A DNA stretch of 50,336 nt from Hellea sp. Its GTDB lineage: Bacteria; Pseudomonadota; Alphaproteobacteria; Caulobacterales; Maricaulaceae. How positions within the stretch are numbered: position 1 is the stretch's first letter; the number at the start of each line of letters is the position of its first letter. The stretch spans positions 1-50,336 of the forward strand of contig JAHDHS010000014.1 of the NCBI GenBank assembly GCA_020631215.1. Reading direction: 5' to 3'. The notes beneath the pieces are model-generated. The model was not told the origin of the DNA, searched no databases, and saw only the letters and a program-made list of their open reading frames with translations. Both the position numbers and the translations under genes were made by a program. Positions 9,863 through 42,015 of this stretch are shown piece by piece.

Positions 9863-10780
9863 ATGAGATTGCGCCATATAGAAGTTTTTCATGCTGTTTA
9901 CATGACGGGGTCTGTGAGTGGGGGCGCTAGGGCGTTGAATGTTTCGCAGCCTACGGTCAGTAAGGTTCTAAAACATGCCGAAGATCAGCTTGGGTTCAAA
10001 TTATTTGATCGCGAGGGCGGACGGCTGAGTCCGACGGATCGGGGCGTTAAGCTGTTTGAGAAAATTGAACCGCTATTTGAACGGCTGAATGATTTAGACC
10101 GTTTCACGCGTCGCTTGGCGGATGAACGAACCGGCCATCTTCGGTTCGCCATGACTCCTGCATTTGGGCTTGAGGTTGCACCATCGGCGATTGCCGCATT
10201 CTCAAGAGATAATCCTGATGTCACGATTGAGACAGAAACGTTGCATGCTGCGCAGCTGATTAAAGCGATACTAGGTAATGAAATCGATATGGGTTTGGTA
10301 TTTGATGCGCCCAATTCCCCCGGCCTTCAAATTCGAACAATCGGCCAAACGCATTTTGTTTGCATCGCGCCCAAAAAATTTAAAGGCTTGCCAAAACAAG
10401 AACTAAAATTGCAGGATTTGAAAAATCTTCCTTTAATCACTTTAAACCCGAAAAGCGTCCTTGGGCATGTACTAAACAGAAAAATCACTGACGCAGTAAA
10501 ACGTCCGCTAACGCAGCATATCACTGTGGAGACCTATCATTTGGCGAAACGTTTGGTGAAACAAGAGGCCGGGGTTGCAATTATTGATGCCGTGACGGCC
10601 TATTCCGGTGACACATCAAATCTGAGATTTCTCACTGTAGGTGGGATGGAAAATATCAATGTCGATATTGTCACTCGTTTAAATGAGCCAATTGCGAAAA
10701 TCGGCTCTGACTTTGAAAAGAGACTTAAAAAATCCCTTGCTGATTGCAATTCCAAGGCCATACGAAGCGCGTCTAAGTAA
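9863..10780 (+). CDS. LysR-family transcriptional regulator
   Basis: The N-terminal winged helix-turn-helix is typical (LRHIEVFHAVYMTGSVSGGA, then LNVSQPTVSKVLKHAEDQLG, residues 2-46 from this start), followed by a periplasmic-binding-protein-like effector domain. The frame extends upstream to 9827, but family members start with M(R/K)LRHIEVF, so the ATG at 9863 is preferred. It precedes the TonB receptor and the D-amino-acid operon on the same strand, and a LysR-box-like palindrome lies in the 118 bp between this gene and the receptor. Control of the island's catabolic genes by an amino-acid-like effector is the likely role. Confidence 0.9.
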   Translation: MRLRHIEVFHAVYMTGSVSGGARALNVSQPTVSKVLKHAEDQLGFKLFDREGGRLSPTDRGVKLFEKIEPLFERLNDLDRFTRRLADERTGHLRFAMTPAFGLEVAPSAIAAFSRDNPDVTIETETLHAAQLIKAILGNEIDMGLVFDAPNSPGLQIRTIGQTHFVCIAPKKFKGLPKQELKLQDLKNLPLITLNPKSVLGHVLNRKITDAVKRPLTQHITVETYHLAKRLVKQEAGVAIIDAVTAYSGDTSNLRFLTVGGMENINVDIVTRLNEPIAKIGSDFEKRLKKSLADCNSKAIRSASK

Positions 10781-24938: not shown

Positions 24939-25146
24939 AGTCCAAGTTATAAATTCTTAGCGATAATGCTTTTAAGTTACGCTCAAAACGGGGTTTTTCA
25001 CCCGCCCGAGGATTGTTACAAACTGTTTCAGAGCGTGAAATTCAAAGGGTTTTTCTTGTGTTAGGCTATTCTTTACTTATTGACAGCAATGCTTAATAAG
25101 ACATTTTTTTGACAGAGCGCCCCCGCTCGACCACGCGAGATTGATA

Positions 25147-26898
25147 ATGACCGAGCCAACGCCAACAGCTCGTGGACAAAAGATTCGCCATGGCGATTTT
25201 TCCACCCTTTGTGAAGCCCTCGATTATGCAGCAACCTGCAATACAGGGTTCAACTATTTTGATGGTCGTGCGAAGCTGAAATCCACCCTCAGCTATGCAG
25301 ATATGCGTGAGCGGGCAATAGAGCTTGCCAAACGCTTGGTGCCATTTGCCGAGAAGGATTCGCGCATCGGTATTGCAGCGGTGTCTACGCCGGAGTTCGC
25401 GGTACTGTTTTTTGCCTGTCAATATGCGGGTCTGGTGCCAGCACCTCTGCCTCTGCCTGTGACACTTGGTGGCCGCGGCTCTTATGAACGGCAATTACAA
25501 CGTATGGCGGATACGGGTGATTTCCATGCGCTATTCTGCCCGGGGTCAATGGAACCAATCATGAGTTCTGCTCTGAACGATCAAGCGATCCCGGTCATGA
25601 CGTTCGAGCAGCTTAATGAGCTACCCAAGGGTGAAATCCTAAGACCCTTCATGCCAGATGATCTTTGCTATATCCAATATTCGTCCGGTTCTTCCAGTTC
25701 TCCTAAGGGAATTATCGGTACTCAGAAGTCGGTTTCGGCCAATTGCCTTGGTATCACGAAACACGGCATGGATATGACGGATGATGACAGGGCGACAAGC
25801 TGGTTACCGCTCTATCACGATATGGGCCTGATCGGTTTTATGATCGCGCCGATGATGAGCCAATTGACGGTAGATTATCTCGACCCGCAAGACTTCACAC
25901 GCCGCCCAATCTCATGGCTCCAATTGATTTCCGACCACAAAGGTACATTATCCTACAGCCCGACTTTCGGTTATGAGCTTTGTGTACGCCGCTGGCGCGA
26001 TGATCGGACGCTTGACCTGTCAAGCTGGCGGGCGGCTGGCATTGGTGGCGACATGGTACGTCCTGAGCCATTGACAGAGTTTCAAGAACTATTTGGCCCG
26101 ATGGGATTCTCTGAAGGCGCCTTTAAGCCGAGCTATGGCTTGGCGGAGACTACATTAGCAGGAACCTTTGCGCCGACAGGGCAGGGGCTCTTGAGGCATA
26201 CAATCGATATGGAACGGTATGAGCGGACTTCGGAGGCGGTTGAAGCGACAGACCTCACACCGCCAGGGCAACGCCGGACATTCGTAGCCTGCGGCCATGT
26301 GCTGCCAAATCACGAAATCGAAATTCGTGATTTTGATGATAAAGTTTTAAGTGAGAAACAGGTCGGCCGGATTTGCCTGAAAGGGCCGAGTGTTTCGCCG
26401 GGCTATTTCCGTAATCGTCAAGCCACCGAAGCGGCATTTGGATCGGATGGTTGGCTTGATACAGGCGACCTTGGTTATTGGCTGGGAGATCAATTGGTTG
26501 TCACAGGCCGTTTCAAAGATTTGATATTATGGCATGGCCGAAATATCTGGCCGCAGGATATAGAATGGGCTGCTCAGGCGGCAGCGCCTCACCGTTGCGG
26601 CAGAGCCTGTGCCTTTGCCATTGGCGGAGCCGGGGATGAGAAAGAAGTCATGTTATTGCTCGAGTGCCGCACGCGTGACCCGCAATTGCTGGATGAAATT
26701 TACAAAGCCGTTATGGGTGCTATCCGGCTTGAAGTCGGCGTGCCTGTTAAACTGCAATTAGTACCGCGCGGGACGATGATTATCACATCATCCGGAAAGC
26801 TGTCCCGTGCGCGGGTTAAGGCGAAATTTATCAAAGGTGAGATCATCGACTTGCAAGATGAAACGCCTTTGCGTGTTGTTTCGTCAGAGGCGGGCTAA
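25147..26898 (+). CDS. aasR: Fatty acyl-AMP ligase / acyl-ACP synthetase of the sphingolipid cluster
   Basis: An adenylate-forming enzyme that activates a fatty acid as acyl-AMP and would load it on the neighbouring acyl carrier protein. The nucleotide-binding motif YIQYSSGSSSSPKGI is near residues 176-190, PSYGLAETTLAGTF follows, and the late GWLDTGDLGYW and GRFKDLILWHGRNIWPQDIE motifs match fatty acyl-AMP ligases. The ATG at 25147 is preferred over a TTG at 25141. In Caulobacter-type sphingolipid clusters an acyl-ACP synthetase (AasR) sits beside acpR and spt, and gene order here agrees. The symbol is by context and motif only. It starts a four-gene operon (gaps of 9, 3 and an overlap of 4 bp). 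Confidence 0.85.
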   Translation: MTEPTPTARGQKIRHGDFSTLCEALDYAATCNTGFNYFDGRAKLKSTLSYADMRERAIELAKRLVPFAEKDSRIGIAAVSTPEFAVLFFACQYAGLVPAPLPLPVTLGGRGSYERQLQRMADTGDFHALFCPGSMEPIMSSALNDQAIPVMTFEQLNELPKGEILRPFMPDDLCYIQYSSGSSSSPKGIIGTQKSVSANCLGITKHGMDMTDDDRATSWLPLYHDMGLIGFMIAPMMSQLTVDYLDPQDFTRRPISWLQLISDHKGTLSYSPTFGYELCVRRWRDDRTLDLSSWRAAGIGGDMVRPEPLTEFQELFGPMGFSEGAFKPSYGLAETTLAGTFAPTGQGLLRHTIDMERYERTSEAVEATDLTPPGQRRTFVACGHVLPNHEIEIRDFDDKVLSEKQVGRICLKGPSVSPGYFRNRQATEAAFGSDGWLDTGDLGYWLGDQLVVTGRFKDLILWHGRNIWPQDIEWAAQAAAPHRCGRACAFAIGGAGDEKEVMLLLECRTRDPQLLDEIYKAVMGAIRLEVGVPVKLQLVPRGTMIITSSGKLSRARVKAKFIKGEIIDLQDETPLRVVSSEAG

Positions 26899-26907
26899 CA
26901 GCACACC

Positions 26908-27816
26908 ATGCCCAGCCAAAAGGTGATAGCTGTCACCGGAGCGACGGGTTTTGTTGGACAGCACTTGATACCGACACTTTTAGAAGGTGGTTATGATGTG
27001 CGGGCACTTGTGCGCACGCCGTCAAAATTACCCGCTCAGTGGCAACATCATCCCAGGTTCGAAATCGTTCAGGGTGATTTATCGTCTGATTTAACCACTT
27101 TAGTTCAGGGCGCAAATACAGTGATTCACATGGCCGGGTTGATTAAGGCCCGGACGCGGCACGATTTCTTCGCTGCAAATGAAGGCGGCACATTAAATAT
27201 CGCTAAGGCGGCTAAAGCGGCCTCAGTCAAGAAATTCATCTTATTGTCATCTATGGCCGCGCGGAAACCGCAGCTTAGCCATTACGCCGCGTCCAAACAT
27301 GCGGGAGAGGACGCTGCCGTCAAATATTTTGGCGATGATACGACCATTATTCGAGCGCCCGCAGTTTTTGGTCCGGGCGATGAGGCCACAAAACCGATCT
27401 TTGATATGATCGCGAAGGGCAGGCTTCCTGTTGCAGGAGGCAATTGGAAAAATATAAATTTATCAATGGTATATGTGACTGATTTAGTGAATTTTATACG
27501 AGATCAAATCACCGCAACATCTTCGCAGCGCCCCGTCGAGCCAGCTACAATCGGCAAAATGAGTTGGCAGGAATTTGCGAAGCTATGCAGCGATTCCCTT
27601 CAGCGACCTGTGAAAATCATGGCAATACCCTCATTCATCTTGTGGCCCGTCGCAGCTTTGACCTCTGCTACGTCACGCCTGTTTGGTGTGGGGCATTTGA
27701 CGCTGGCCAAATTACGGGAGTTCCAACATGTTGACTGGACGAGCGAGGATATAGTTGATAACCCCACGCCGATGATTATTGCGTTACGGGAGACCGCAAA
27801 CGCTTACAGGAATTAG
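26908..27816 (+). CDS. cerR: NAD-dependent epimerase/dehydratase, CerR-like ketosphinganine reductase
   Basis: An extended short-chain dehydrogenase of 302 residues. The nucleotide-binding GATGFVGQHLIPTL is near residue 10, HMAGLIKARTRHDFF lies mid-fold, and the catalytic Y-x3-K is in HYAASKHAGEDA. In Caulobacter relatives an epimerase-type protein in this position (CerR) reduces the 3-oxo group formed by serine palmitoyltransferase. The position between the ligase and the acyl carrier protein supports the same role here. Another NAD(P)-dependent step on the lipid cannot be excluded. Confidence 0.82.
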   Translation: MPSQKVIAVTGATGFVGQHLIPTLLEGGYDVRALVRTPSKLPAQWQHHPRFEIVQGDLSSDLTTLVQGANTVIHMAGLIKARTRHDFFAANEGGTLNIAKAAKAASVKKFILLSSMAARKPQLSHYAASKHAGEDAAVKYFGDDTTIIRAPAVFGPGDEATKPIFDMIAKGRLPVAGGNWKNINLSMVYVTDLVNFIRDQITATSSQRPVEPATIGKMSWQEFAKLCSDSLQRPVKIMAIPSFILWPVAALTSATSRLFGVGHLTLAKLREFQHVDWTSEDIVDNPTPMIIALRETANAYRN

Positions 27817-27819
27817 GGC

Positions 27820-28071
27820 ATGTCAGAACCAAGTCGTGATGAAATCTATGAAAAGATTTGTGAGCTATTAAAGCCTTACAACCCGCAAAACCGTCCAATC
27901 AAAATGAGCAGTGGCATCATGTCTGATCTTGAAGTCGACTCAACGGCTGTGTTTGATATTATTATGGGACTAGAGGACCATTATGACATTTCCATACCTA
28001 TGGAGATGGTCTCTGACATCAAAACCGTTGGGGAACTCACGACTGCGATTATGGGACTCACGGCATCATGA
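27820..28071 (+). CDS. acpR: Acyl carrier protein dedicated to sphingolipid synthesis
   Basis: An 83-residue carrier protein. The phosphopantetheine attachment serine is S41 in LEVDSTAVFDI (the usual motif is DSL; here the residue after serine is threonine), followed by the acidic helix II and a typical third helix. It overlaps spt by 4 bp (ATGA) and follows the reductase by 3 bp. Specialised carriers in front of spt are known to supply acyl chains to the alphaproteobacterial serine palmitoyltransferase, and this one fits that class rather than the general AcpP. Confidence 0.9.
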   Translation: MSEPSRDEIYEKICELLKPYNPQNRPIKMSSGIMSDLEVDSTAVFDIIMGLEDHYDISIPMEMVSDIKTVGELTTAIMGLTAS

Positions 28072-29297
28072 GTTTATTTGAAAAATATGCGCCGCTGCAA
28101 GCCCGGCTGGATGTCGTCAAAAAAGTTGGTACGGATCCGTTTGGCGTTAAATTTGACGATATTCTAAGTCCAACACGCGGACGGATAGGTAATCGGGAAA
28201 TCGTGCTGGCGGGCACTAACAACTATCTTGGCCTTACCTTTGATGAAGACTGCATGGCGGCCGCTAAAAAAGCGATTGATGACCATGGGACGGGAACGAC
28301 CGGTTCCCGGATTGCCAATGGGACTTACGAAGAACATACGGATTTGGAAAAAGCAATTGCTGATCATATGGGCATGCCCAGCTGTATCGTATTTTCGACG
28401 GGTTATCAGACGAATTTGGCAGCAATTTCAGGCTTGGCTGGAGATAAGGATGTAATCTTTATGGATGCGGATGCTCATGCCTGTATCATTGACGGGACAA
28501 GGCTAACCGGCGCGTCGACCATCCGCTTTCGCCACAATAACCCTGAAGACCTTGATAAGCGATTAAGGCGACAAGGCGAGATCGAAGGCGGGCACGCACT
28601 AGTGGTCATTGAGGGTATGTATTCCATGTTCGGCGACATCGCCCCGATTGATGAGTTTCTTGACGTTACCCATAAACATGGGGGCTATCTATTTATTGAC
28701 GAGGCGCATAGTTATGGAGTCTTCGGCCCTACAGGCTGTGGTATCGCCGAAGAACAGGGGGTTTTGGATAAGGTCGATTTTATCTCCAGTACTTTCAGTA
28801 AATCTCTGGCTTCGATTGGCGGTTTTTGTGCGTCTATTCATCCGGAATTTGAAATCACGCGTAAAGTCATGCGGCCTTATATGTTCACGGCGTCGCCAAC
28901 GCCCTCCAATGTCTCTGCCGCGCGCGCGGCCGTGGATAAAATCAAGAGCGGAGGCCATTTGCGCGCCAATCTAAAAACCCGTGCCTTTCAACTTCATAAA
29001 GGCCTGTCCGAGCTTGGCTATGATCTTTGTGCAGACCCAAGCCCGGTCATAGCGGCACGCCGCCCCAATGAAGCCATTGCGGCTATGGAATGGAATTGGC
29101 TCCTGCAAAACGGCGTCTATGTAAATTTGGCCGTTCCGCCGGGTACGCCGCAAAGCTCATCTCTTTTGCGTATCAGTCTGTCTGCCGCGCATAGTGAAGA
29201 TGACGTCAATCAGATCATAACAAAATTCAAAGACCTCAAAGAGGTGAGCCCTAATCTTATGGCCGAAATGATGAAGTCTATGCAGGCCGCAGAATAA
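28068..29297 (+). CDS. spt: Serine palmitoyltransferase
   Basis: A pyridoxal-phosphate enzyme of the alpha-oxoamine synthase family (409 residues) that condenses serine with an acyl thioester to give a 3-oxo-sphinganine. Visible motifs are the cofactor-stacking GTNNYLGLTFD, GTGTTGSRIANGTYEEH, the cofactor-binding IDEAHSYGVFG, and the Schiff-base lysine K245 in STFSKSLASIGGF. KBL and BioF enzymes share the fold, but the acyl carrier gene immediately upstream and the ceramide genes around it point to sphingolipid synthesis. It converges with the Tam41-like gene with a 14 bp gap. Confidence 0.9.
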   Translation: MSLFEKYAPLQARLDVVKKVGTDPFGVKFDDILSPTRGRIGNREIVLAGTNNYLGLTFDEDCMAAAKKAIDDHGTGTTGSRIANGTYEEHTDLEKAIADHMGMPSCIVFSTGYQTNLAAISGLAGDKDVIFMDADAHACIIDGTRLTGASTIRFRHNNPEDLDKRLRRQGEIEGGHALVVIEGMYSMFGDIAPIDEFLDVTHKHGGYLFIDEAHSYGVFGPTGCGIAEEQGVLDKVDFISSTFSKSLASIGGFCASIHPEFEITRKVMRPYMFTASPTPSNVSAARAAVDKIKSGGHLRANLKTRAFQLHKGLSELGYDLCADPSPVIAARRPNEAIAAMEWNWLLQNGVYVNLAVPPGTPQSSSLLRISLSAAHSEDDVNQIITKFKDLKEVSPNLMAEMMKSMQAAE

Positions 29298-29311: not shown

Positions 29312-30223
29312 TTATTTGAACGCGCCTTTACGCCAAAGTTTCCATCCTAAAACAGGTGAGGATATGACTGGGTGTTTGCGCTGAAAGACTGTTGGCTGAA
29401 TGGTGACCCCGGAATGATTGTGCAGTTTGCGAAGCACATATTCCAAACCGCCATCGAAAGTTGCTGCAGAGTTGATAACTCTGATGGCCGTCATGGGTTT
29501 GCCGATCAAGCGTCGCAGGAACCATCGGAATTTTGCTCCCTTACGGCGCGTCTTTGGTAGGTGAATCACGCCATTCTCCATCTGATAAAGAACAGCAGAC
29601 AGTTTCTGATAGCGCGTTAAATATCGTTCCACGATTTCGGCAGACCGTCCTACAGAGCTCTCCGGACGAAGTTCGGTGCGGTAGCTTTCGTGAAATCCGC
29701 GAGCCCAAAAATCTGTCGGCGTCACGGTTTGCTCAAAGAGTGGTTCAGTTTCTAAGGCTATGTGTCTAATGGCTTCTTCGCGGGCCGCCATTATGCGGTT
29801 CGTGACTGTTTCGGACTTCGGTCTCAGTAATGCGCAGGGCTGAGAAAATCGGCCCCATGTCTGGGACAGTAATGCTTTGGACGAACAGCGCCGCTCAAAG
29901 GCAGGCAGTGACATGATGGAGTATTTACAGGTGCTCATAACACCTTTCTGGTCAACATGTTCCAGATAGTAGACCGTTGGTGGGATAATGGCATTTAGCA
30001 CGGCCCGTATCGGATTTTTGTGTGTTTTTCGGTAACTGTCTACGATCACATAAAAGTCCAGCATCTTTTCAGGATTGTCGAGCTCTCTAAGGCTGGAGCC
30101 ATAATATATAAATGCCTGAACGCGGCCCGGATGTTTGGCTTCAATGATATCGCAAACTTCCGCAACGCGCGGAGGCAGGTCGAGCATTTCCTCGCCTAGG
30201 ATATCGCGAATTGTGGATTTCAT
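29312..30223 (-). CDS. Tam41-like phosphatidate (lipid-phosphate) cytidylyltransferase
   Basis: A 303-residue protein with the layout of the Tam41/Mmp37 CDP-diacylglycerol synthases: a nucleotidyltransferase-type FIYYGSSL near residue 40, MLDFYVIVDSY near residue 53, and a KYSIMSLPAFERR segment near residue 120 that corresponds to the KYGVIS region of Tam41. Tam41 uses CTP and a lipid phosphate. Its start overlaps the lipid kinase stop by 4 bp (ATGA), so the two are coupled, and a natural substrate is the kinase product. That would give a CDP-activated sphingolipid or CDP-diacylglycerol. The family call is by eye and the reaction is inferred. Confidence 0.72.
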   Translation of the reverse strand: MKSTIRDILGEEMLDLPPRVAEVCDIIEAKHPGRVQAFIYYGSSLRELDNPEKMLDFYVIVDSYRKTHKNPIRAVLNAIIPPTVYYLEHVDQKGVMSTCKYSIMSLPAFERRCSSKALLSQTWGRFSQPCALLRPKSETVTNRIMAAREEAIRHIALETEPLFEQTVTPTDFWARGFHESYRTELRPESSVGRSAEIVERYLTRYQKLSAVLYQMENGVIHLPKTRRKGAKFRWFLRRLIGKPMTAIRVINSAATFDGGLEYVLRKLHNHSGVTIQPTVFQRKHPVISSPVLGWKLWRKGAFK

Positions 30224-31131
30224 CGGGCAAATTTCAGGGGCTTTGTCGCCCGAATGTTAAAGCGCTTCGATAGGTCCAAAACCTCTCCGTCCAAAACACA
30301 AGGGCCTTGATACCTGATTTTTATCCGGTCCGCTGTCCAGCTATATAGGCCATCATCACTTCGGTCTTTGCCTTTATTGCCTATCCAAAGGCTGGCAACA
30401 TTGCGCAGGAGTTTGCGGTGAGAACCGTCTACATAAGTAACCCGAAGAGGCCGTTTACCTCCGCCCCAAAAGGGATCCAGTTTCAAAATCAGACCGGGTA
30501 GGGTTGTGATAATCGTGCCCAGATGAGGCCCGCGTAATTTCACTTTATGATCAGTATATAGATTCAAATCGATATTGGTCGGCTTTGTTAAGGCGTTGTC
30601 TCCAGACACGCCTTTCAGGATGCCACCAATGACGGCGAGTGAGCCGCCAATGCCGCGATCATGAAGTTGTTCCTTGGTGTAGTCTGTCACTTGTGGCAGC
30701 GCCCCGGTTGAGAAGAGAAACCCGTAATGTTTTCCGCCGCTTTTATCCTTAACTCGAATAAGCGGCGCATGTGTGATGTCAGCGTCTTTCGAAAGTGCTT
30801 TAGCGAGCGCGCTCTGCGTAGCCGATGACAATCCGATATTGCGGGAAACTTGGTTCGTGTTTCCGCCGGGCACAAGTGTAAAACGCGGCAGGTTGCGTGC
30901 CTTTTCATAGCGCAAAAATGCTGTCAACACGCCATGGACCGTTCCGTCCCCGCCTTCAATCACGATATGATTGGCTTTGGCGGCGAGGGCGTCTTGCGCC
31001 AATTGCTCTACGGCAGAGAAATCAGTTACATCACGCAGCACTGCGCCGTGGATATCTGCCAGTTTCGGTAGGATTGCACCTTTTTTGGCGACTTTCGCAC
31101 TGGCTGAGTTGACCACGAACCAAAGTGACAT
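30220..31131 (-). CDS. cpgB: Lipid kinase, CpgB-like ceramide kinase
   Basis: A 303-residue protein of the diacylglycerol-kinase catalytic fold (DagK/YegS type). The nucleotide-binding GGDGT motif is at residues 60-64 (IVIEGGDGTVHGVL), PGGNTNQVSRNIG follows, and the C-terminal domain is the usual beta-sandwich. A protein of this family is the ceramide kinase CpgB in Caulobacter, and the surrounding cluster makes the same role likely here. Diacylglycerol or the free sphingoid base are alternative acceptors. It lies 5 bp after the LptG-like gene in the operon, coupling phosphorylation with transport. Confidence 0.82.
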   Translation of the reverse strand: MSLWFVVNSASAKVAKKGAILPKLADIHGAVLRDVTDFSAVEQLAQDALAAKANHIVIEGGDGTVHGVLTAFLRYEKARNLPRFTLVPGGNTNQVSRNIGLSSATQSALAKALSKDADITHAPLIRVKDKSGGKHYGFLFSTGALPQVTDYTKEQLHDRGIGGSLAVIGGILKGVSGDNALTKPTNIDLNLYTDHKVKLRGPHLGTIITTLPGLILKLDPFWGGGKRPLRVTYVDGSHRKLLRNVASLWIGNKGKDRSDDGLYSWTADRIKIRYQGPCVLDGEVLDLSKRFNIRATKPLKFAR

Positions 31132-31136
31132 GGAAC

Positions 31137-32219
31137 TTATCCTAGGCTTTCCGTGCGCAAAACCATGAATGCCCCCAATACGCCGAAAAAGAGCAATGGA
31201 AGGGTTATGGCTGGCAGCACCGCAAGACCACCAGAGGCAGCAAATGTTGCCATAGCGCCATCAATGATCAGGAATATAAAGCCCATTGTAATCCCTAAAA
31301 TAAGCGTCTTATCCCCTGTATCTTCCCGGCCTGTTCGTTGCATCAAGGCGGCGCAACATACCAATAATATTAGGGCGGCGATTGGACGTGTCAGACGGTG
31401 TGCATGCCAAAAAGAATAAGCAAATCTGGGTTTGGAACCGGAATTGCCCCGTTTACGGAAACGACGCATTTCGGACAAAGACAGGTCTCGCGGTTCAGCG
31501 GCCAGACGGGCGATTGAGGTCGGGTTTTGGCGAGTTTCCCATATATGTGTGCTGGCATCCTTCATGGCTATGCGTGGTTCACCATCTGCGCCCTCCACAG
31601 CCAGTGTGCGTACGCCGTTAAGCTGCCAATTGGGATTTTTATAGGTTGCGGTCTGCGCCCAGAGGATACCCTCAACATCGCCAACATCATTGCGGGAGAA
31701 GATCGTGATGCCGCCAAGCATATCATAACGTAAACGCTCAGTTGCCCGAACGATGCGGCCATTGTCTTCCAGCCATAAGGGATTGTCTTCTGTGATGTTT
31801 TTTACCTTATATTCCCCAATTCCCCAAGCCTGTAGCGACTTCACCGCCGGCGCCATGGTGTAGTCAATAACGGTAATAGACAGGAGCGCGGCGCCTAAAA
31901 CGGCGGGGGCTAACAGCATAATTTGTTTTGGGGCTGATATCCCGAAGCCAAGTAACGCCACAAGCTCATGCTGCCGGATGAGTTTAACGAAGGTCAGCAG
32001 GATTGCAACGACAAGCGTAAAAATGAATATGCGATCAAAGATAACGGGGGCCCGAAGTGCCATATATTTAAAAGTGTCTTTGAAACCACCATCACCACTT
32101 AAGATATCTGCGCCATTAGCCAGACTGTCGAGCAAGCCAATCAGAGTTAAAAAGCCAAAGACAACTGTCAGCCAAAGTAGAAAAAAACTTTTGGATAAAT
32201 ATGCCGCGAATTTAAGCAT
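31137..32219 (-). CDS. LptG-like permease (YjgP/YjgQ family)
   Basis: A 360-residue inner-membrane protein with three hydrophobic segments at each end and a central periplasmic beta-jellyroll domain (residues about 125-260), the architecture of LptG in the lipopolysaccharide export machine. Family patterns include FIFTLVVAILLTFVKLIRQHEL near the second and third segments. It overlaps the LptF-like gene by 8 bp. Because it is operonic with a lipid kinase and a cytidylyltransferase in a sphingolipid locus, it may extract a phospho-sphingolipid rather than LPS. It could instead be the organism's only LptG. Confidence 0.85.
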   Translation of the reverse strand: MLKFAAYLSKSFFLLWLTVVFGFLTLIGLLDSLANGADILSGDGGFKDTFKYMALRAPVIFDRIFIFTLVVAILLTFVKLIRQHELVALLGFGISAPKQIMLLAPAVLGAALLSITVIDYTMAPAVKSLQAWGIGEYKVKNITEDNPLWLEDNGRIVRATERLRYDMLGGITIFSRNDVGDVEGILWAQTATYKNPNWQLNGVRTLAVEGADGEPRIAMKDASTHIWETRQNPTSIARLAAEPRDLSLSEMRRFRKRGNSGSKPRFAYSFWHAHRLTRPIAALILLVCCAALMQRTGREDTGDKTLILGITMGFIFLIIDGAMATFAASGGLAVLPAITLPLLFFGVLGAFMVLRTESLG

Positions 32220-33423
32220 TCTCTACCCCGGCAATACGCTGTCTTATTCTGGCGACGCGCGCTCTGAAAGTGTCCTGCATATTAGATATCCACTGCGCAA
32301 AGGAGGATAGAGGTGGCTGGCCCATTTTATATGCGCTTTTCCTGAAGAGAATAAAGGCAAAGGCTGCCAACACTGCCATGATACCCCATATGCCCAGCCA
32401 TGGCGGGATTTTACCTGCGGCCCCAAGCGATTGCCCAAACTCTAGCATTTTTTGTAAGGATACTAGGAAGACAACCCCTACGAATATTCCGGCAGAAGAC
32501 GGGTTTCGGCCGTAATTTAGTCCAAAGGGCACGGCGATGAATGGCAAAAGCAAGAGCAGTGCCGCCTTTGCCAAGCGCAAATGCAGAGTGGCATTATTCG
32601 TGTTTTGATCGACCCGGGGAAAGAACATACCAGTGCGGTTCTTGAACAATTCAAGCGAGGTCATCTCTCGCTCGTCATCTCCGCGTATTCTAAATTCCGT
32701 AATGCTGGCGGCTCCGGCAATGGCAGAACTGTCAAAACTAAGTTCTCCTCCCAATTGCTGATTGTCCTGAACTTGAAAACCCCGGCCATTGGCAAGTTGC
32801 AGGACGGGGCTGCCGTCTTCTTCGCGGATGATCAATTTACCTTGACTGGCCGTTGTAATTCGAAAACCCGTCTCCTTGCCATTCATAATAGTCTTTTCAT
32901 GAATGAAGATTGGACCGATCGCTGAACCGGGCAAATCTGTTCCCGCAAAAAATGTACGTAGGCCGACCGGCGTAAAAGTCCCTTCGCGCAGAGCAGCGGT
33001 AAAGGATTGCTGTTTTACGCGGTTGACGACATTACGATATTCATACCGTCCAACCGGTTGCATGTAGCCTTCGATAAAGATGGTAATGATGGCAAGAAAG
33101 GCCGCTATCCAGAGGAATGGCTTGGTCATATGGAACAGAGATACCCCAGCGCCGAGGGCCGCCGTTAATTCACTGGAGCGGGAGAGGCGGTCGACCGTGA
33201 TAATTGTCCCCAGCAATAATGCCATGGGGACCGCCATGCCCAGATAATATGGCAAGAGGTTGATGATCATGGTGCTGGCATCTGTTGCGGGGCTGGCGGA
33301 ATTTGAGACAATTTCGAAAATTCGTAGCAAACGTTCCATGAGCAGAACACAGCATGCAAAGATCACCAAGCCGCCAATGCTAATGGCCGCGCGTTTGAGG
33401 ATATATCGGTTCAAACCACCCAT
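32212..33423 (-). CDS. LptF-like permease (YjgP/YjgQ family)
   Basis: A 403-residue partner of the LptG-like protein: N-terminal segments (ISIGGLVIFACCVLLMERLL; PYYLGMAVPMALLLGTI), a periplasmic domain of about 170 residues, and a C-terminal set of three segments (LLLLLPFIAVPFGLNYGR). It is the first gene of the minus-strand operon. It would need an LptB-type ATPase encoded elsewhere. Its start faces a DUF2141 gene across 114 bp, which must hold divergent promoters for the two halves of the locus. Confidence 0.86.
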   Translation of the reverse strand: MGGLNRYILKRAAISIGGLVIFACCVLLMERLLRIFEIVSNSASPATDASTMIINLLPYYLGMAVPMALLLGTIITVDRLSRSSELTAALGAGVSLFHMTKPFLWIAAFLAIITIFIEGYMQPVGRYEYRNVVNRVKQQSFTAALREGTFTPVGLRTFFAGTDLPGSAIGPIFIHEKTIMNGKETGFRITTASQGKLIIREEDGSPVLQLANGRGFQVQDNQQLGGELSFDSSAIAGAASITEFRIRGDDEREMTSLELFKNRTGMFFPRVDQNTNNATLHLRLAKAALLLLLPFIAVPFGLNYGRNPSSAGIFVGVVFLVSLQKMLEFGQSLGAAGKIPPWLGIWGIMAVLAAFAFILFRKSAYKMGQPPLSSFAQWISNMQDTFRARVARIRQRIAGVENA

Positions 33424-33537: not shown

Positions 33538-34107
33538 GTGAAATCAAACTCCATTCACATAAAAAACCGTCATCTTTCTAGAGTGGCTTTAATCGCTGCT
33601 GCTATGCTGACTGTCTCCGGATCAGCGTTTGCTGATGAAGAGGTAGAAAAAGAACCTTTATCACAGATTGGCATTGAAACAGGTCTGGAACTCTATGATC
33701 GCGACAAAGCCGATACTTGTGTCCCCGGCGCTCTGCAAATCCGGGTGAATGTCCATAATGTGACGCCAGTCGGTATCTTGAAACTCGAGCTTTTTGGCGA
33801 AGAGAATTTCATGAAGAAGAAGGGCAAGTTACGCCGTATTCGTGTCCCGGCAGCCGAAAGCCCTCAAAAAGTATGCATAAATCTGCCTTATCCCGGGTCT
33901 TATGCCGTTGTCAGCTATCACGATAAAGATGGTGATCGCCGGCTGGATAAAAAGTGGAATTTCAAGCCAAAAGAGCCCTACGGATTGTCGAATAATCCTG
34001 AAATAAAATCACTTCGTCTGCCAAAATACTCCGAAACGGGCTTTGATGTGCCTATGGAAGGTGTCGATATTGACATCAATCTGGTTGACCTGAGGAAAGA
34101 TGATTAG
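33538..34107 (+). CDS. DUF2141 domain protein, predicted exported
   Basis: A 189-residue protein with a signal peptide (residues 1-32, ending SGSAFA) followed by a beta-rich DUF2141 domain. The recognisable core is PGSYAVVSYHDKDGDRRLDK with EPYGLSNNP after it. It starts with GTG, preceded by a weak AGGA-containing leader. The function of the family is unknown. Here it lies divergent from the export genes and 41 bp before the ceramide-synthase-like gene, so a role in lipid trafficking in the periplasm is a reasonable guess. Confidence 0.82.
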   Translation: MKSNSIHIKNRHLSRVALIAAAMLTVSGSAFADEEVEKEPLSQIGIETGLELYDRDKADTCVPGALQIRVNVHNVTPVGILKLELFGEENFMKKKGKLRRIRVPAAESPQKVCINLPYPGSYAVVSYHDKDGDRRLDKKWNFKPKEPYGLSNNPEIKSLRLPKYSETGFDVPMEGVDIDINLVDLRKDD

Positions 34108-34148: not shown

Positions 34149-35303
34149 TTGAATTCACAAATTGTCTTAGAAACGGTTCAGACACCTGAACAGCTAAAGC
34201 TGTTTTTGGGGTTGCCTTATGAACTCTATCGCGGTGATCCGGCGTGGAGACCGCCTTTGCGAATTGAGCGCAAGGAACAACTGGATCCTGCCAAAAACCC
34301 TGCTGCTGCTAATTTAGACAGATCGTTATTCCTTGCGAAACAAGGCGGATCAGTCGTTGGACGAATTGCAGCCTTTATCAATCCGGCTCATGACTCACTT
34401 CACAAGGACAATTCTGCTTTCTTCGGATATTTAGACGCGATCCAGGATGAAACTGTCATTTTTGCATTATTGGAAGCCGCTGAAAACTGGGCCACGGCCA
34501 AAGGCCGAAGCCGATTGGTTGGTCCTGCCCAATGGGGCGTCAATGAAGAGGTTGGCCTGCTGATTGATGGATTTGAGCATCCCAATGTCGTTTTAATGCC
34601 CTACGGCAAGGCCTATTATCAATCAGCCGTAGAAGGCTTCGGGTTTGAAAAAGCAGTCGATCTATACGCCTTCCAAGCCGACATCCATGCAGGATATCCC
34701 CGCCCTAAGATGACGCAAATGATGGTCAATTATGCCACGAAGTCAGAGTCCGTTGTGTGGCGTAAGCTTGATCCGAAAAATTTTACTCGTGACATCGAGT
34801 CTGCCATGGAAGTCTTCAATGATGCCTGGGGTAATAATTGGGGTTTCCTGCCATTTCCCGATGATGCCATTCAGCACCTGGCAAAGGAAATGAAACCGCT
34901 TATCAGTCCCAATCGATTTTACCTTGGTTATATCGAAGGAAAATTGGCGGCGTTTATTTGCTTGATTCCTGACCTGAATGAACTGGCCAGAGGGTTTGAT
35001 GGCAAATTGCTGCCATTTAACTGGGCTAAACTCATCTGGCGGCTGAAATTTGGTAAGATTAAGCAATCCCGTGTGCCGCTCATGGGGCTGAAAACAGAAT
35101 TTCATAACACTCGAAAAGGTCTTGGTCTTGTCGCCGCGTTATGTGAAGAAGTTTTCGCGGCGGCCCGGGATGAAGGTTATACGCATTCAGAACTTGGCTG
35201 GATTTTAGAAGATAATGAGAGCATGATCGCCATATGCAAACAGGCAAGCGCTGTGCCCTATAAAACCTACCGAATGTATGAAAAGCAAATTGGGAATGGC
35301 TAG
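34149..35303 (+). CDS. bcerS: Ceramide-synthase-like N-acyltransferase (GNAT fold)
   Basis: A protein of about 384 residues with a C-terminal GNAT-like region (NRFYLGYIEGKLAAFICLIP; MGLKTEFHNTRKGLGLVAAL). Its length and pattern (PEQLKLFLGLPYELYRGDPA; LVGPAQWGVNEEVGLLIDGF) match the Caulobacter bacterial ceramide synthase, which acylates the amino group of the sphingoid base. The frame is open from a TTG at 34131. A TTG at 34149 has GGAGA spaced 7 nt upstream and is preferred. It overlaps the next gene by 8 or 26 bp depending on that gene's start. The identification rests on sequence pattern and cluster context. Confidence 0.82.
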   Translation: MNSQIVLETVQTPEQLKLFLGLPYELYRGDPAWRPPLRIERKEQLDPAKNPAAANLDRSLFLAKQGGSVVGRIAAFINPAHDSLHKDNSAFFGYLDAIQDETVIFALLEAAENWATAKGRSRLVGPAQWGVNEEVGLLIDGFEHPNVVLMPYGKAYYQSAVEGFGFEKAVDLYAFQADIHAGYPRPKMTQMMVNYATKSESVVWRKLDPKNFTRDIESAMEVFNDAWGNNWGFLPFPDDAIQHLAKEMKPLISPNRFYLGYIEGKLAAFICLIPDLNELARGFDGKLLPFNWAKLIWRLKFGKIKQSRVPLMGLKTEFHNTRKGLGLVAALCEEVFAAARDEGYTHSELGWILEDNESMIAICKQASAVPYKTYRMYEKQIGNG

Positions 35304-36048
35304 ATCATCCGTCTTGATATTAGCTGGCCAACGTCCCGGTGTCGATCCGTTGTGTCAGGCGGCGGGAGTTAAGCGCAAAGCCGATGTGCCTATCGCGGGT
35401 AAGGCCATGCTGGATTATGTTTTGGAAACTGTGATCGGGGCCGGTCTTACGGACGTAAACATCAGTGGTTATGATGGAGATTTGCGGGGTCATAAATTGT
35501 CGCCAAGTGGGCTGGGTCCTGCTGATAGCACCTATAAAGCCCTATCGGCCGGTATAGATTATCCCTGCCTGATTACGACCTGCGATCATGTCCTGTTGTC
35601 AAAGGACATGATTGATGCCTTCACAAAAAAGGCAGTTGCAACCGGGGCTGATTTTTGTGTGGGGCTTGCTACAAAAAATGTCATTGAGGCGAAATATCCT
35701 GAGACCAAGCGAACTTATTTAAAGTTCTCAGATGTATCTGTATCCGGGTGTAATCTTTTTTACATCGCTAACGCCAGAGGCCGGGCCGCCATAGAATTTT
35801 GGAAAGAAGCCCAACATTTGCGCAAACAACCCTTCAAGCTTGCGAGAAAAATAGGGCTAGGCGTCGGGTTGAAATACGCAATGGGAAGACTTTCATTAAA
35901 AGGTGCCTTTGAATATGCGGGGAGCAGGATTGGTATTTCTGCCAGCCCTGTCCTTATCCCCTTTGCGGAGGCGGCTATCGATGTTGATAAGCCAGCCGAT
36001 AAAGAACTGGTCGAGTCTATATTGTTAAGGCGGGGTTATGACGCCTGA
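35296..36048 (+). CDS. MobA-like nucleotidyltransferase, possible head-group cytidylyltransferase
   Basis: A 250-residue protein with the GT-A nucleotidyltransferase N-terminus (VLILAGQRPGVDPLCQAAGV then a lysine, KADVPIAGKAMLDYVLETV) and a conserved acidic motif in LITTCDHVLL. It would use CTP or GTP to activate a small phosphorylated compound. A cytidylyltransferase for 3-phosphoglycerate (CpgD) has been described in Caulobacter ceramide-phosphoglycerate synthesis, and this gene is a candidate for such a role. An upstream ATG at 35278 is also possible. The ATG at 35296 gives the usual family start and an 8 bp overlap with the previous gene. It overlaps the fusion gene by 11 bp. Confidence 0.75.
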   Translation: MARSSVLILAGQRPGVDPLCQAAGVKRKADVPIAGKAMLDYVLETVIGAGLTDVNISGYDGDLRGHKLSPSGLGPADSTYKALSAGIDYPCLITTCDHVLLSKDMIDAFTKKAVATGADFCVGLATKNVIEAKYPETKRTYLKFSDVSVSGCNLFYIANARGRAAIEFWKEAQHLRKQPFKLARKIGLGVGLKYAMGRLSLKGAFEYAGSRIGISASPVLIPFAEAAIDVDKPADKELVESILLRRGYDA

Positions 36049-38521
36049 TCTCAGCATTGCCTCTAAACAGACTGTTGGAAAACGCATTGCGGCGAATACC
36101 GGGCTCATGCTCGGGTCCAAGCTACTATCCGTTATTCTAGGTTTGGGAAGCATCATTCTGGCAACCAAATTTTTGGATGTGGCATCGCTCGGCATCATTC
36201 TTTTTTTACACGCCTATATGTTGTTCTTTTCCGAGGTGGCGACGTTTAAATCTTGGCAATCCATTATTCGATTTGGAACGGATCATTTGAAATCTAAAAA
36301 CGTTTCTGATCTGTCCAAACTGCTAAAATTTTCCATCAAATTGGACGCTATAGGGGCCATATTCGGTTTTGTAGCTGCCATTGGCACTTTCAGCTTTGTG
36401 ATGTGGCTAACCCAGCAATTGCCAGATTTTTTTGAACGTCCAGAGGTCATGCCACAGTCAGAGCTGCGTAATTACGTCTTTGGTTATTGCGTTCTAATTT
36501 TGCTCCGGATGCGCGGTGCACCGATAGGCATTTTACGGTTGTTTGATAAGTTCAGCATCCTGGCAGTGCAGGGAGTTGTCATGCCAGCCATACGTTTTGC
36601 CGGTGTGGTGATCGCTGCCGTGACAGGTGCGGGTTTTGAAGGTTTCCTGCTCGCATGGTTCATGGGCTCCTTTGCCGCATATATTTTCTTCCCGATTGTG
36701 GGTCTGCTGGAATTGGGTCGGCGTCATTTAATAGGGCCTGTTTTCAGCACGAAGGCGGCTTTTAATGATATGCCAAAAGGCGTTTGGCCTTTTGTGATCA
36801 AGTCAAACATAGACTCTACGCTGGATGCCGCCACTATGCATTTACCGGCCTTGATGGTTATGGGCGTGTTCGGTTCCGCTTGGGTGTCGATTTTCAGGAT
36901 TGCGGAAGAACTCGCCAAGCTTCTGTCCGAAGGATTTAAGCTGTTGGATCAAGTTATTTATCCTGAACTCGCCAAGATGATTACGATGGGTGAGGAGTCC
37001 CAAATTTGGCGTCTTGTGACCCGCACAGCCCTCATACTCCTAGCCTTTGGTACGGGCGTTTCACTCATCCTGATTATATTTGGGCCGACGGTTGTGTCCC
37101 GGATTTTGTCAGAAGATTACATTCATGCCGCGCCGTTAACGTCACTGCTGGTCCCTGCGGCAGTTTTATTGGGGATAGCAGCGCCGCTCTATCCAGTGCT
37201 CTATGCGGCCGATAAGCCAGAGCGGGCAATTTTTGCCAGAGGGGCGGGTGTTATTATTTATATCATCGCGTTTTTTGGGTTTAGCTTCACGATTGGAAAA
37301 ATGGCGCCGGGATGGGCGGCAATATTAGGGAATGCAGCGTCTGTCGCCTTTCTCGTTTATCTCGCCAAACGTACGCTGGATAGCCGGGCCAAGGCGGTTG
37401 ATACAATTGCAGAAAATGGCGGATTGGCTCCTTCATTAATTTTGGCGGGGAATAGTGACAAGACTTTGTGGGGCATGCCGGTTGAAAAGTGGCAGAAGAG
37501 AGCCTTCAAGAAAGCTGGCGTCTCGGAGGCACCCTCATCCACAACGATTACTATGGGCGTTGAGTGGATATTATCCTCAGCCTTGGCCGCAGCTTTTGTG
37601 AAAAGTGAAAAAACGGCGCTCATTACCAATGATGTCATCATCGGTGTCAACGCCGATGAGTCGCCTAAATATAAAGGTCTAATTGGGAAGCCTGCGGCTT
37701 ACGCCGAGAAAGCTGGTCTGATACTAAGACGGCCTGATGATCTTGACAGCGGGTATAATAAAGCACTTCGAAAAACAGAGCCGCCTTATGCGCTTGACAT
37801 AAATAAAAACCCGACGCCTCTGATTATGCAGAGACAGTTTGATGCTTCTTATAAAGGCATAACTGATTTTGTGACGAAATGGTTCTGGCCAAAGCCAGCC
37901 TATCACGTCACCCGGCTTTTCGCCTCACTTGGCCTGACCCCGAATATGGTCACAACAATAGGTTTAATCCTGATGTTTGCGGCCATGTATTACTTTTGGC
38001 AGGGGCAGTGGTTCATGGGCTTTTTGACAGGCTGGTTGATGACCTTTTTGGATACAGTAGATGGCAAGTTAGCTCGTACGACTATGACTTACTCGGCTTG
38101 GGGAAATGTCTATGATCACGGGATAGATCTGATCCACCCTCCGTTTTGGTATTTAGCGTGGTTTATTGGTTTGGGATGCCAGTTTGAATTAGGGTCCTGG
38201 CCGACTCTAGCCTTATTGGCGATATTCGCTGGCTATGTACTTGATAGAATTATTGAAGGCATTTTTATCGCACTGCACGGGTTTCATATCCATGTCTGGC
38301 GCCCCGTCAATTCGGCTATGCGCTTTGTAACGGCCCGTAGAAATCCAAATATGTTTATCTTTATGCTTGGGATTGTCGCCAGCCTGATTTGGACACAGGC
38401 TGGTTTATATGGATTTTATTTGGTTGCAATTTGGATTTGGCTTTGTATCTTTTTCAACATCGGCGTCTTATGCGTTTCGGTTTTAATGCCCAAGCCTCTG
38501 AAATCCTGGATGAATGTGTAG
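36038..38521 (+). CDS. Fusion: MOP-family flippase + NTase-like linker + CDP-alcohol phosphotransferase
   Basis: An 827-residue membrane protein with three parts. Residues about 10-450 resemble a polysaccharide or lipid flippase of the MOP (Wzx-like) superfamily with about 12 membrane segments. Residues about 460-600 look like a degenerate nucleotidyltransferase-type domain (SLILAGNSDKTLWGMPVEKW), as found before the transferase in some archaeal and bacterial inositol-phosphate enzymes. Residues about 610-827 form a CDP-alcohol phosphotransferase, with every key residue in place: D672, D675-G676, A679-R680, G689, D693 and D697. Fusion of transfer and flipping would let the enzyme build a head group and move the lipid in one protein. 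I checked that the single frame is continuous. Confidence 0.82.
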   Translation: MTPDLSIASKQTVGKRIAANTGLMLGSKLLSVILGLGSIILATKFLDVASLGIILFLHAYMLFFSEVATFKSWQSIIRFGTDHLKSKNVSDLSKLLKFSIKLDAIGAIFGFVAAIGTFSFVMWLTQQLPDFFERPEVMPQSELRNYVFGYCVLILLRMRGAPIGILRLFDKFSILAVQGVVMPAIRFAGVVIAAVTGAGFEGFLLAWFMGSFAAYIFFPIVGLLELGRRHLIGPVFSTKAAFNDMPKGVWPFVIKSNIDSTLDAATMHLPALMVMGVFGSAWVSIFRIAEELAKLLSEGFKLLDQVIYPELAKMITMGEESQIWRLVTRTALILLAFGTGVSLILIIFGPTVVSRILSEDYIHAAPLTSLLVPAAVLLGIAAPLYPVLYAADKPERAIFARGAGVIIYIIAFFGFSFTIGKMAPGWAAILGNAASVAFLVYLAKRTLDSRAKAVDTIAENGGLAPSLILAGNSDKTLWGMPVEKWQKRAFKKAGVSEAPSSTTITMGVEWILSSALAAAFVKSEKTALITNDVIIGVNADESPKYKGLIGKPAAYAEKAGLILRRPDDLDSGYNKALRKTEPPYALDINKNPTPLIMQRQFDASYKGITDFVTKWFWPKPAYHVTRLFASLGLTPNMVTTIGLILMFAAMYYFWQGQWFMGFLTGWLMTFLDTVDGKLARTTMTYSAWGNVYDHGIDLIHPPFWYLAWFIGLGCQFELGSWPTLALLAIFAGYVLDRIIEGIFIALHGFHIHVWRPVNSAMRFVTARRNPNMFIFMLGIVASLIWTQAGLYGFYLVAIWIWLCIFFNIGVLCVSVLMPKPLKSWMNV

Positions 38522-38524
38522 GCG

Positions 38525-39196
38525 ATGCCAAATATTGCGATTTTTGACTTGGACTATACGCTGACCAAACGTGGGACGTGGGGAAGGTTTGTAGTGAAGG
38601 CCGTAAAATTTCGGCCTTGGCTATGGCTGCCATTATTGGTGTCGGCAGGTTGGACGCAGTGGCGTTACAAGCGTGGCCACTTGCCACGTATCCGCGTCAA
38701 ACAGGCCATGATGCGCTGGTCGCTAGTCGGTATGCCGCGTCGGGACGTTATGGTGATGGCGGATGTCTTTGCAGAGCGAGAGGTTCAAAAGGGACTGCGC
38801 CCGGGGGCTTTGACGGCGATTAAACGCCATAAGGATGCAGGCGATGTTTTGATCATCGTAAGCGCCGCCGTTGATGTCATTGTGGAGCCAATCGCAGACA
38901 GACTGGAATTTGATCATTGGCTCGCCACAGACATGAAGTGGGATAACAACCGCCTATCAGGTGATTTTGCGTCCAAAAATTGCTATGGCCCGGAGAAAGT
39001 GACGCGGCTGAATCGGCTTTTTGATGATCACCCCGAATTGAAACATTCTGACACAATTATCACGTTTTATTCAGATAGTTACTCTGATATTGAATTGCTA
39101 ACCTATTCGGACTTAGGTGTAGCGGTAAACCCTGACCGAAAGCTGAAGGCAATTGCGGTTGAAAGAGGCTGGGACATACAAGACTGGGGAAAATAG
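38525..39196 (+). CDS. HAD-superfamily phosphatase (subfamily IB)
   Basis: A 223-residue phosphatase with the catalytic D8-x-D10-x-T motif (FDLDYTLTKRGTWGRF), a helical cap (residues about 20-100), motif II in LIIVSAAVDVIV and the late acidic motif in FYSDSYSDIELL. This resembles the PSPase-like CicA group. It begins 3 bp after the fusion gene, so it probably removes a phosphate from the product or substrate of the phosphotransferase, as PGP phosphatase does after PgsA. The substrate is inferred only from context. Confidence 0.85.
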   Translation: MPNIAIFDLDYTLTKRGTWGRFVVKAVKFRPWLWLPLLVSAGWTQWRYKRGHLPRIRVKQAMMRWSLVGMPRRDVMVMADVFAEREVQKGLRPGALTAIKRHKDAGDVLIIVSAAVDVIVEPIADRLEFDHWLATDMKWDNNRLSGDFASKNCYGPEKVTRLNRLFDDHPELKHSDTIITFYSDSYSDIELLTYSDLGVAVNPDRKLKAIAVERGWDIQDWGK

Positions 39197-41205: not shown

Positions 41206-42015
41206 ATGGCCAGCGAAGTCGAAAAACCTAAACACTTAAAGAACCCGCGCCGCGCCTTTGTCAAAAAGACGGGCAAGGCGCTTGTGCGAAAGATTGCCAG
41301 CTTTCAATCAGGGCAGTCAAAAGTGCCTGACACGCCCAAAATAGACAATTCCCATTTCCCATTCTTGCAGGAATTTGTTCAAAATTGGGAAATCATCCGC
41401 GATGAAGTCAAAGGTGTTTTGAAATTTAAAGAAGCCATTCCCGGCTTTCATGAGATTTCTCCGGATCAATATCGTTTGTCGACCGAGAATAATTGGAAAA
41501 CTTTTGTTTTATTCGGATTTGGTCAGCGCTTGGAAAAAAACGCGTCACTTGCCCCTAGAACGGCTGAAATTCTGGAAAAAGTGCCAAATTTGCAAACGGC
41601 AATGTTTTCTATATTGGCGCCTGGTTATCATATCCCGGCCCATAAAGGCGTGACCAAGGGCATCTTACGTTCTCACATAGGTTTGATCATCCCGAAGGAC
41701 CGGGAGAAATGCCGCATTCGGGTCGATGACACGATTACCGCCTGGAAAGAAGGTGAAATCTTTGTCTTTGATGATACCTATGAGCATGAAGTCTGGAATG
41801 ATACGGATGAGGAACGGGTCATTCTGCTGTTTGATTTTGATCGCCCGATGAAGTTTTGGGGCCGGTTTTTAAATGCCACCTTCTTACAGGTCATGAAGCT
41901 GACAGCATTTTATCAAGACCCCAAGAAAAACCTGCAAACAGCTGAAGAACGGCTTGAGGCCGCAATCCGGCAGGCTGATGCCAATATGGAAGCGATGTCA
42001 GACCCGGCAGGGTAG
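41206..42015 (+). CDS. LpxO-like aspartyl/asparaginyl beta-hydroxylase
   Basis: A 269-residue Fe(II)/2-oxoglutarate dioxygenase of the AspH/LpxO family. The iron-binding residues are recognisable around HIPAHKGVTKGILRSHIGLI and in FDDTYEHEVWND, with the arginine for 2-oxoglutarate in RSHIG. LpxO relatives hydroxylate acyl chains of lipid A or ornithine lipids at the 2-position. In this cluster, a 2-hydroxy-acyl ceramide is a likely product. It is the last gene of the operon and converges with the XRE gene with a 4 bp gap. Confidence 0.87.
   Translation: MASEVEKPKHLKNPRRAFVKKTGKALVRKIASFQSGQSKVPDTPKIDNSHFPFLQEFVQNWEIIRDEVKGVLKFKEAIPGFHEISPDQYRLSTENNWKTFVLFGFGQRLEKNASLAPRTAEILEKVPNLQTAMFSILAPGYHIPAHKGVTKGILRSHIGLIIPKDREKCRIRVDDTITAWKEGEIFVFDDTYEHEVWNDTDEERVILLFDFDRPMKFWGRFLNATFLQVMKLTAFYQDPKKNLQTAEERLEAAIRQADANMEAMSDPAG

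Follow-up and report, generated by a model that had tools for sequence, protein, structure and literature searches.

A putative MOP-type flippase fused to a CDP-alcohol phosphotransferase in a probable ceramide-phosphoglycerate gene cluster of Hellea sp.

In Caulobacter, CC_1159 (CpgA) is required for the sphingolipid CPG2 and not for ceramide phosphoglycerate (CPG), and CC_1166 has been called a potential flippase, which the consulted sections of that paper do not investigate (PMC11324152; here and throughout, PMC citations refer to the sections consulted). CpgD makes CDP-glycerate, with CpgA proposed as its user (PMC12275187), a proposal repeated in a 2026 preprint (PMC13228409). A described archaeal protein of related fold, AF2299, takes CDP-glycerol as its donor (PMC4634129). 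Here, we describe a gene at 36038-38521 (+ strand) in a 50,336-nucleotide stretch of Hellea sp. (contig JAHDHS010000014.1), the whole of which we call the window, whose product joins in one chain a 12-helix MOP-type flippase, a degenerate cytidylyltransferase-like domain and a CDP-alcohol phosphotransferase (CDP-AP), in that order. In the literature consulted, whose coverage leaves out most subscription papers, we found no description of such a flippase/CDP-AP fusion, and searches for sphingolipids together with Hellea, for CC_1166 and for a ceramide flippase likewise yielded none among the papers listed.

By homology and gene order, each half of the fusion corresponds to a gene that stands alone in Caulobacter, namely CpgA (CC_1159) and CC_1166. 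We consider it probable that the fusion, as a CC_1166-type MOP flippase and a CpgA-type CDP-AP, makes CPG2 on the cytoplasmic side and then translocates it. A probable CPG2 head-group enzyme and a probable flippase would then be united in one protein, within a marine bacterial group. The domain architecture, its conservation, the gene context and the co-inheritance with CpgD are observed, and from these genes we predict, as the reading with the best support, that head-group attachment is coupled to translocation. The parts of the protein are as follows:

36038..37393, + strand: flippase half, residues 1-452, with 12 predicted membrane helices, of the MOP superfamily by family PF01943, fold matches, positive-inside loops and conserved basic residues
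37433..37852, + strand: middle cytosolic domain, residues about 466-605, with a degenerate cytidylyltransferase-like fold as in AF2299, by models and fold matches
37853..38518, + strand: CDP-AP domain, residues about 606-827, with 6 predicted membrane helices, by PF01066, phmmer and fold matches
38051..38128, + strand: CDP-AP signature D672..D675 G676..A679 R680..G689..D693..D697, invariant in 65/65 rows

A preliminary description of this DNA had claimed one continuous 827-residue frame, three domains and eight key CDP-AP residues, and each claim stands on closer analysis. The frame is single and uninterrupted (827 codons, zero internal stops); the assignments as MOP flippase, degenerate nucleotidyltransferase-like domain and CDP-AP are borne out by profiles, model and fold matches; and D672, D675, G676, A679, R680, G689, D693 and D697 are all present and correctly numbered. 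The gene overlaps the preceding one by 11 bases, the following gene begins 3 bases past its stop, and third-position GC content is uniform along its length (0.47 to 0.55). Start-like codons lie in frame between residues 430 and 484 (CTG 447; TTG 463, 469 and 477; ATG 480, the sole ATG), and those at residues 447-480 therefore make internal initiation near the junction conceivable, without any support.

Domain search and structure prediction identify the CDP-AP by Pfam and the MOP part by family profile and fold. An AlphaFold2 model of the fusion, built from 59 aligned sequences picked by hand, has a mean predicted local distance difference test (pLDDT) score of 92.9 and a predicted template modelling score (pTM) of 0.80. 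Foldseek matched this model to MurJ (best E 1.2e-7), WzxE and MATE proteins and, separately, to PIP synthases, AF2299 and IPCT-DIPPS. The topology of 12 helices, a cytosolic domain and 6 helices is consistent with the positive-inside rule, and in the model the twelve flippase helices, together with the positive-inside loops, would leave both the junction and the middle domain facing the cytoplasm.

The pattern D..DG..AR..G...D...D is the signature of CDP-alcohol phosphotransferases, and its eight motif residues are invariant in 18/18 aligned sequences and in 65/65 CDP-AP rows (the window counted in both). Pfam CDP-OH_P_transf (PF01066) matches residues 634-795 (E 1.3e-7, 32.5 bits against a cut-off of 22), phmmer matches the domain to PIP synthase structures (E 8.9e-7), and PIP synthase-type families of NCBIfam match below their cut-offs. 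The modelled CDP-AP has the six-helix fold with a juxtamembrane helix and matches AF2299 and PIP synthases, some PIP synthase structure entries being chimeras that bear the AF2299 domain (PMC4634129).

Fold and family evidence also show that the first half is a MOP flippase at family level, with lipid translocation as its predicted activity. It has 12 helices and matches MurJ, WzxE and MATE folds at E 1e-7 to 1e-5. In an alignment of 22 rows selected by hand, PF01943 matches 15 homologues (best E 8.5e-16) and PF13440 matches 8, with the window member matched by neither. Two basic residues within the helices, K28 (K or R) and R186, are conserved in 22/22 rows, and would suit an anionic substrate; the 8 invariant columns of the alignment hold also in its 5 fused rows. 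The alignment profile retrieved no informative match among PDB sequences.

The middle domain, modelled alone (pLDDT 91.3), retrieved AF2299 first in a fold search, a weak match (E 5.8e-3, probability 1.00; none at E <=1e-3), followed after AF2299 and PIP synthase entries by RmlA- and IPCT-type nucleotidyltransferases, all weak. Pfam on 18 members gave no convincing match for this domain, and its alignment profile gave nothing useful against PDB sequences. The catalytic GxGxR, K and D are not conserved in the 18-row alignment, in which the invariant columns (G, R, Y, L, R, K) include none at catalytic places; vestiges are GAGxxR in some rows and a frequent D or E where hhalign places the CpgD Asp. 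The CpgD family retains the full GxGxR, K, D set. An active CpgD-like enzyme was considered here and judged unlikely, given the lost catalytic residues and a profile comparison with the CpgD family that was not significant (hhalign, 3.4% probability). The degenerate domain probably no longer makes a CDP-alcohol, and may instead serve as a docking site for CpgD or hold the membrane domains on either side of it in a given geometry.

Homology and gene order place the fusion within what appears to be a CPG/CPG2 cluster, a pathway absent from the preliminary description. It has the same neighbours as the CpgA-type gene set, CpgD included:

25141..26898, + strand: acyl-ACP/AMP ligase (AasR position), named by gene order
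26908..27816, + strand: CerR-type reductase, named by position
28068..29297, + strand: serine palmitoyltransferase (SPT), NF047599 (550 bits against a cut-off of 500)
29312..30223, - strand: 303-residue protein at the CpgC (CC_1161) position, by gene order
30220..31131, - strand: ceramide kinase (CpgB position), DAGK_cat, by PF00781 and gene order
31137..32219, - strand: LptG2-type permease, by gene order
32212..33423, - strand: LptF2-type permease, by gene order
33538..34107, + strand: DUF2141 protein of the cluster, PF09912
34131..35303, + strand: GNAT-type ceramide synthase (bCerS position), by PF00583 and gene order
35278..36048, + strand: MobA/CofC-like nucleotidyltransferase (NTP_transf_3), by position the CC_1153 counterpart, by PF12804 and gene order
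38525..39196, + strand: HAD-IB phosphatase-like protein, PF12710 and TIGR01490
39210..39965, + strand: CpgD-like nucleotidyltransferase, the expected CDP-glycerate maker, PF00483
39940..41193, + strand: cyclopropane fatty acid synthase-like protein of the same gene run, PF02353 (NF053839 just below cut-off)
41206..42015, + strand: OlsC/LpxO-like hydroxylase of the same gene run, PF05118 (NF052565 below cut-off)

The two permeases are presumably LptF2 and LptG2, names that we take from their position, and the protein at the CpgC position has zero matches in Pfam or NCBIfam. The CpgD-like protein shares 45-47% identity with the genes that occupy the CpgD position in Caulobacter and Phenylobacterium loci, and its R13, K23 and D107, which correspond by position to published active-site residues, are invariant in 13/13. 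Caulobacter-type loci (e.g. L093 and L109; L numbers denote loci and G numbers genomes) run CpgD, nucleotidyltransferase, bCerS, LptG2, LptF2, CDP-AP, ceramide kinase, CpgC position, SPT, CerR, ligase and flippase, in agreement with the order described for CC_1152 to CC_1166 (PMC11324152). The HAD gene has no match in L093 or L109. Loss of lipopolysaccharide was considered as a reason for the cluster and is not supported, LpxC being present in this genome.

Co-inheritance ties these genes together across 60 genomes searched. SPT (E up to 1e-100) is present in 30, including all 18 with a CDP-AP of this type. A flippase match accompanies SPT in 26 of these genomes, and G039 is the one genome among the 30 lacking SPT to show a match, a weak one. 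CpgD (E up to 1e-30) accompanies the CDP-AP in 17/18 genomes as against 0/42 genomes lacking it (Fisher p 5e-14, uncorrected for kinship).

Eight of the 60 genomes have SPT and flippase without this CDP-AP. We viewed the surroundings in six (G014, G017, G027, G003, G005 and G015, with G006 and G011 left out) and in the main clusters of G220 and G333, CpgD being looked for in G333 in the stretch alone. All eight stretches retain bCerS, nucleotidyltransferase, flippase and HAD in order. The HAD gene is followed by a TagF-like glycerophosphotransferase in three (L123-L125) and by an ATP-grasp protein with a second nucleotidyltransferase in two (L120-L121), and in L122, L126 and L128 no such head-group gene was recognised. 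The head-group slot therefore varies while the flippase stays.

Several further genes were seen in or near such slots. The TagF-like genes lie at 7566-8756 in L123, 11868-13097 in L124 and 7087-8304 in L125 (PF04464 tested in L124 and L125), and a TagF-like homologue adjoins the flippase in three Caulobacter loci (L076, L093, L102), by position CC_1167, which the consulted literature regards as probably unrelated. Second flippase copies of fusion-bearing genomes adjoin another TagF-like gene (L130 9382-11755, L131 7784-10207). The ATP-grasp and second MobA-like nucleotidyltransferase genes (L120 11460-13345, L121 11651-13530) may point to a further ceramide head group. A second, diverged CDP-AP paralogue (37-39%) lies on the opposite strand of the sphingolipid cluster in L079 (5058-5630), L082 (4880-5458) and L089 (4709-5350), and further second copies were seen in the class-wide genome search.

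A survey of genomes found the same fusion as well as split versions, many of them beside spt. The 18 genomes with a CDP-AP of this type comprise 13 fused (the window's own, G028, G001, G009, G010, G013, G008, G016, G002, G007, G035, G004 and G012) and 5 split (G018, G022, G056, G053 and G020); the start of the G004 fusion is cut by a contig end, and that of G012 is inferred across a contig break, its CDP-AP piece opening with a flippase tail. The isolate genomes of Hellea balneolensis (G028, L032) and Litorimonas cladophorae (G013, L040) carry the fusion; the window shares its genus code with G013, and the NCBI family of Hellea and Litorimonas is Robiginitomaculaceae. The best 80 of 534 confirmed relatives from a contig scan overlap with the 60 genomes (L032 is G028, L040 is G013 and L050 is the CDP-AP contig of G012), and the counts are thus not independent. 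They comprise 19 fused loci, L050 (fused and cut by a contig end), 10 with neighbouring genes on one strand (gaps of -4 to 419 bases), 18 with the flippase apart and 32 without a flippase in the stretch. Fused or neighbouring loci make up 30/80, a share biased upward since the 80 are the top scorers to the fusion; rarer independent fusions may exist beyond the best 80.

Among the matches listed for 398 genomes of the order, at least 13 have a stop-free match over both halves (own included; one from residue 150), the fusion falls in three genus-level groups (g1, g12 and g19), and G018 and G132 match over both halves with one stop between. Among 385 genomes of the class the fusion is in the window's own genome alone, with none outside the order in the 28 other matching genomes. 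Separate fusions hinted at by long open frames in G082 and G369 were rejected, stops parting the genes. In L115 (G018, 10326-10350), flippase and CDP-AP are parted by a TAA and an immediate ATG in the same frame. A CDP-AP tree of 65 rows (the window with 19 fused and 12 neighbouring rows, plus 18 separate and 15 of 33 without flippase in the stretch; L050 omitted) gathers the 20 fused rows and two split ones into a single starred set. In a flippase tree of 62 rows, among which the Roseovarius and L098 matches at 25-28% could represent other MOP proteins, the fused rows again share one starred set, joined there by two split rows and by two whose genomes lack the CDP-AP. One fusion followed by separations or losses is the simplest reading, of which these quick trees, with long branches flagged, are no proof.

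In light of this gene set, what might the fusion do? The scheme that follows, in its substrates, its flipping step and any direct passage of product from one half to the other, is our inference. The CDP-AP active site, at the cytoplasmic face, would take CDP-glycerate from the CpgD encoded two genes downstream and add a second phosphoglycerate to CPG, giving CPG2. The flippase part would then carry the completed anionic lipid over to the periplasmic leaflet, from which the LptF2/G2 system may take it towards the outer membrane. With rather less confidence, somewhat short of an even chance, we suggest that the charged product passes directly from the CDP-AP into the MOP cavity, in the manner of MprF though from unrelated parts and of independent origin, and that CC_1166 is the Caulobacter sphingolipid flippase, which stays while head-group enzymes swap.

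Several points weigh against synthesis of CPG2 followed by its translocation. The window protein itself has zero Pfam flippase profile matches in its first half, and in the sections consulted of the pathway literature neither CpgA nor the flippase is assayed. CerR is located in the periplasm of Caulobacter (PMC11087976), which complicates a simple order of cytoplasmic synthesis and then flipping. In G018 the CDP-AP is encoded by a gene of its own and no CpgD is matched at E 1e-30, and four of the 30 SPT genomes have no flippase match. The six genomes named above keep the flippase in position without CDP-AP and CpgD; the flippase is therefore not restricted to CPG2, and relatives that have it without the enzyme weaken strict coupling. 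In both trees the split versions of G018 and G022 group within the fused set, and therefore the fusion may have been undone or have arisen more than once. With the flippase apart in 18/80 loci and not within the stretch in 32/80, the fusion is therefore dispensable for function.

The chief uncertainty is whether the flippase half acts on CPG2 specifically or on phosphoceramides in general. It is possible, though in our view unlikely, that it is a general flippase of all phosphoceramides of the pathway, the fusion fixing no more than stoichiometry or co-expression, without hand-over of product. The flippase indeed keeps its place whether the slot holds a TagF-like gene, the ATP-grasp and nucleotidyltransferase pair or neither, and the tight gene packing could let a fusion arise easily. 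However, G220 carries an additional flippase/CDP-AP/CpgD set (L127) away from its main cluster (L126), which has its own flippase, suggesting that the flippase is matched to the head group, and the fusion recurs in the three genus-level groups among the matches listed.

Quite improbable, next, is that the CDP-AP uses another CDP-alcohol (e.g. CDP-glycerol) or another acceptor, the lipid being a relative of CPG2. AF2299, which is among the nearest solved folds of the C-terminal part, uses CDP-glycerol, slot genes vary among close relatives, G018 has the CDP-AP without CpgD, and the HAD protein and OlsC-like hydroxylase could further alter the lipid; against this, a CpgD homologue with its active-site residues in place by position co-occurs in 17/18 genomes. 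We give very little credence to a transport-dead flippase half that merely anchors CpgA in the membrane, as the missing Pfam match of the window member might suggest, whereas the 8 invariant columns hold in the fused rows, the basic helix residues are kept, and a CDP-AP with six helices of its own needs no anchor. Finally, an artefact of sequencing or assembly that merged two genes, for which one could cite relatives with adjacent genes (once parted by TAA-ATG alone, in L115), is ruled out by the same fusion, its frame conserved, in 12 other genomes of the 60, both isolates included. Neither this error nor an N-terminal part unlike MOP flippases by profile, the two ways in which the preliminary description might have failed, is what we found.

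Gene fusion is strong circumstantial evidence of joint action by two proteins. The synthesis and translocation of CPG2 by one chain would nominate CC_1166-type proteins as the bacterial sphingolipid flippase that this pathway has been missing and would place flipping after head-group assembly, and both the nomination and the order are testable in Caulobacter.

How does the fusion compare with known systems? AF2299 (Archaeoglobus) resembles its C-terminal part in having a cytidylyltransferase-like domain, a six-helix CDP-AP and a CDP-alcohol donor, but has no flippase and, in the sections consulted, does not process lipids (PMC4634129). Caulobacter CpgA (CC_1159/CCNA_01217, an assignment that rests on gene order) likewise has a CDP-AP behind the same kind of N-terminal domain, in the same cluster and with CpgD in that cluster; it is, however, a separate gene without a flippase, about 38-40% identical over residues 440-826. 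CC_1166 is like the flippase half in being MOP-type and belonging to the sphingolipid cluster (with about 27-30% identity in Caulobacter loci), but is a separate gene beside the acyl ligase gene. MurJ and WzxE share the lipid-carrier flippase fold of the MOP superfamily, but lack a CDP-AP, and their substrates are polyprenyl-linked. In IPCT-DIPPS (4MND) a cytidylyltransferase domain also precedes the CDP-AP; that domain is active, whereas its counterpart in the fusion seems degenerate, with CpgD encoded on its own. MprF differs in its flippase fold and synthase chemistry and in acting on a glycerophospholipid rather than a sphingolipid, and no MprF flippase or aminoacyltransferase match was found in Pfam or in the best 50 of 322 fold matches. 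The likeness to MprF is thus one of analogy alone: as proposed here, the fusion would be comparable to it in logic and built from unrelated parts, one protein modifying a lipid head group and translocating the product, as MprF does (PMC8131360).

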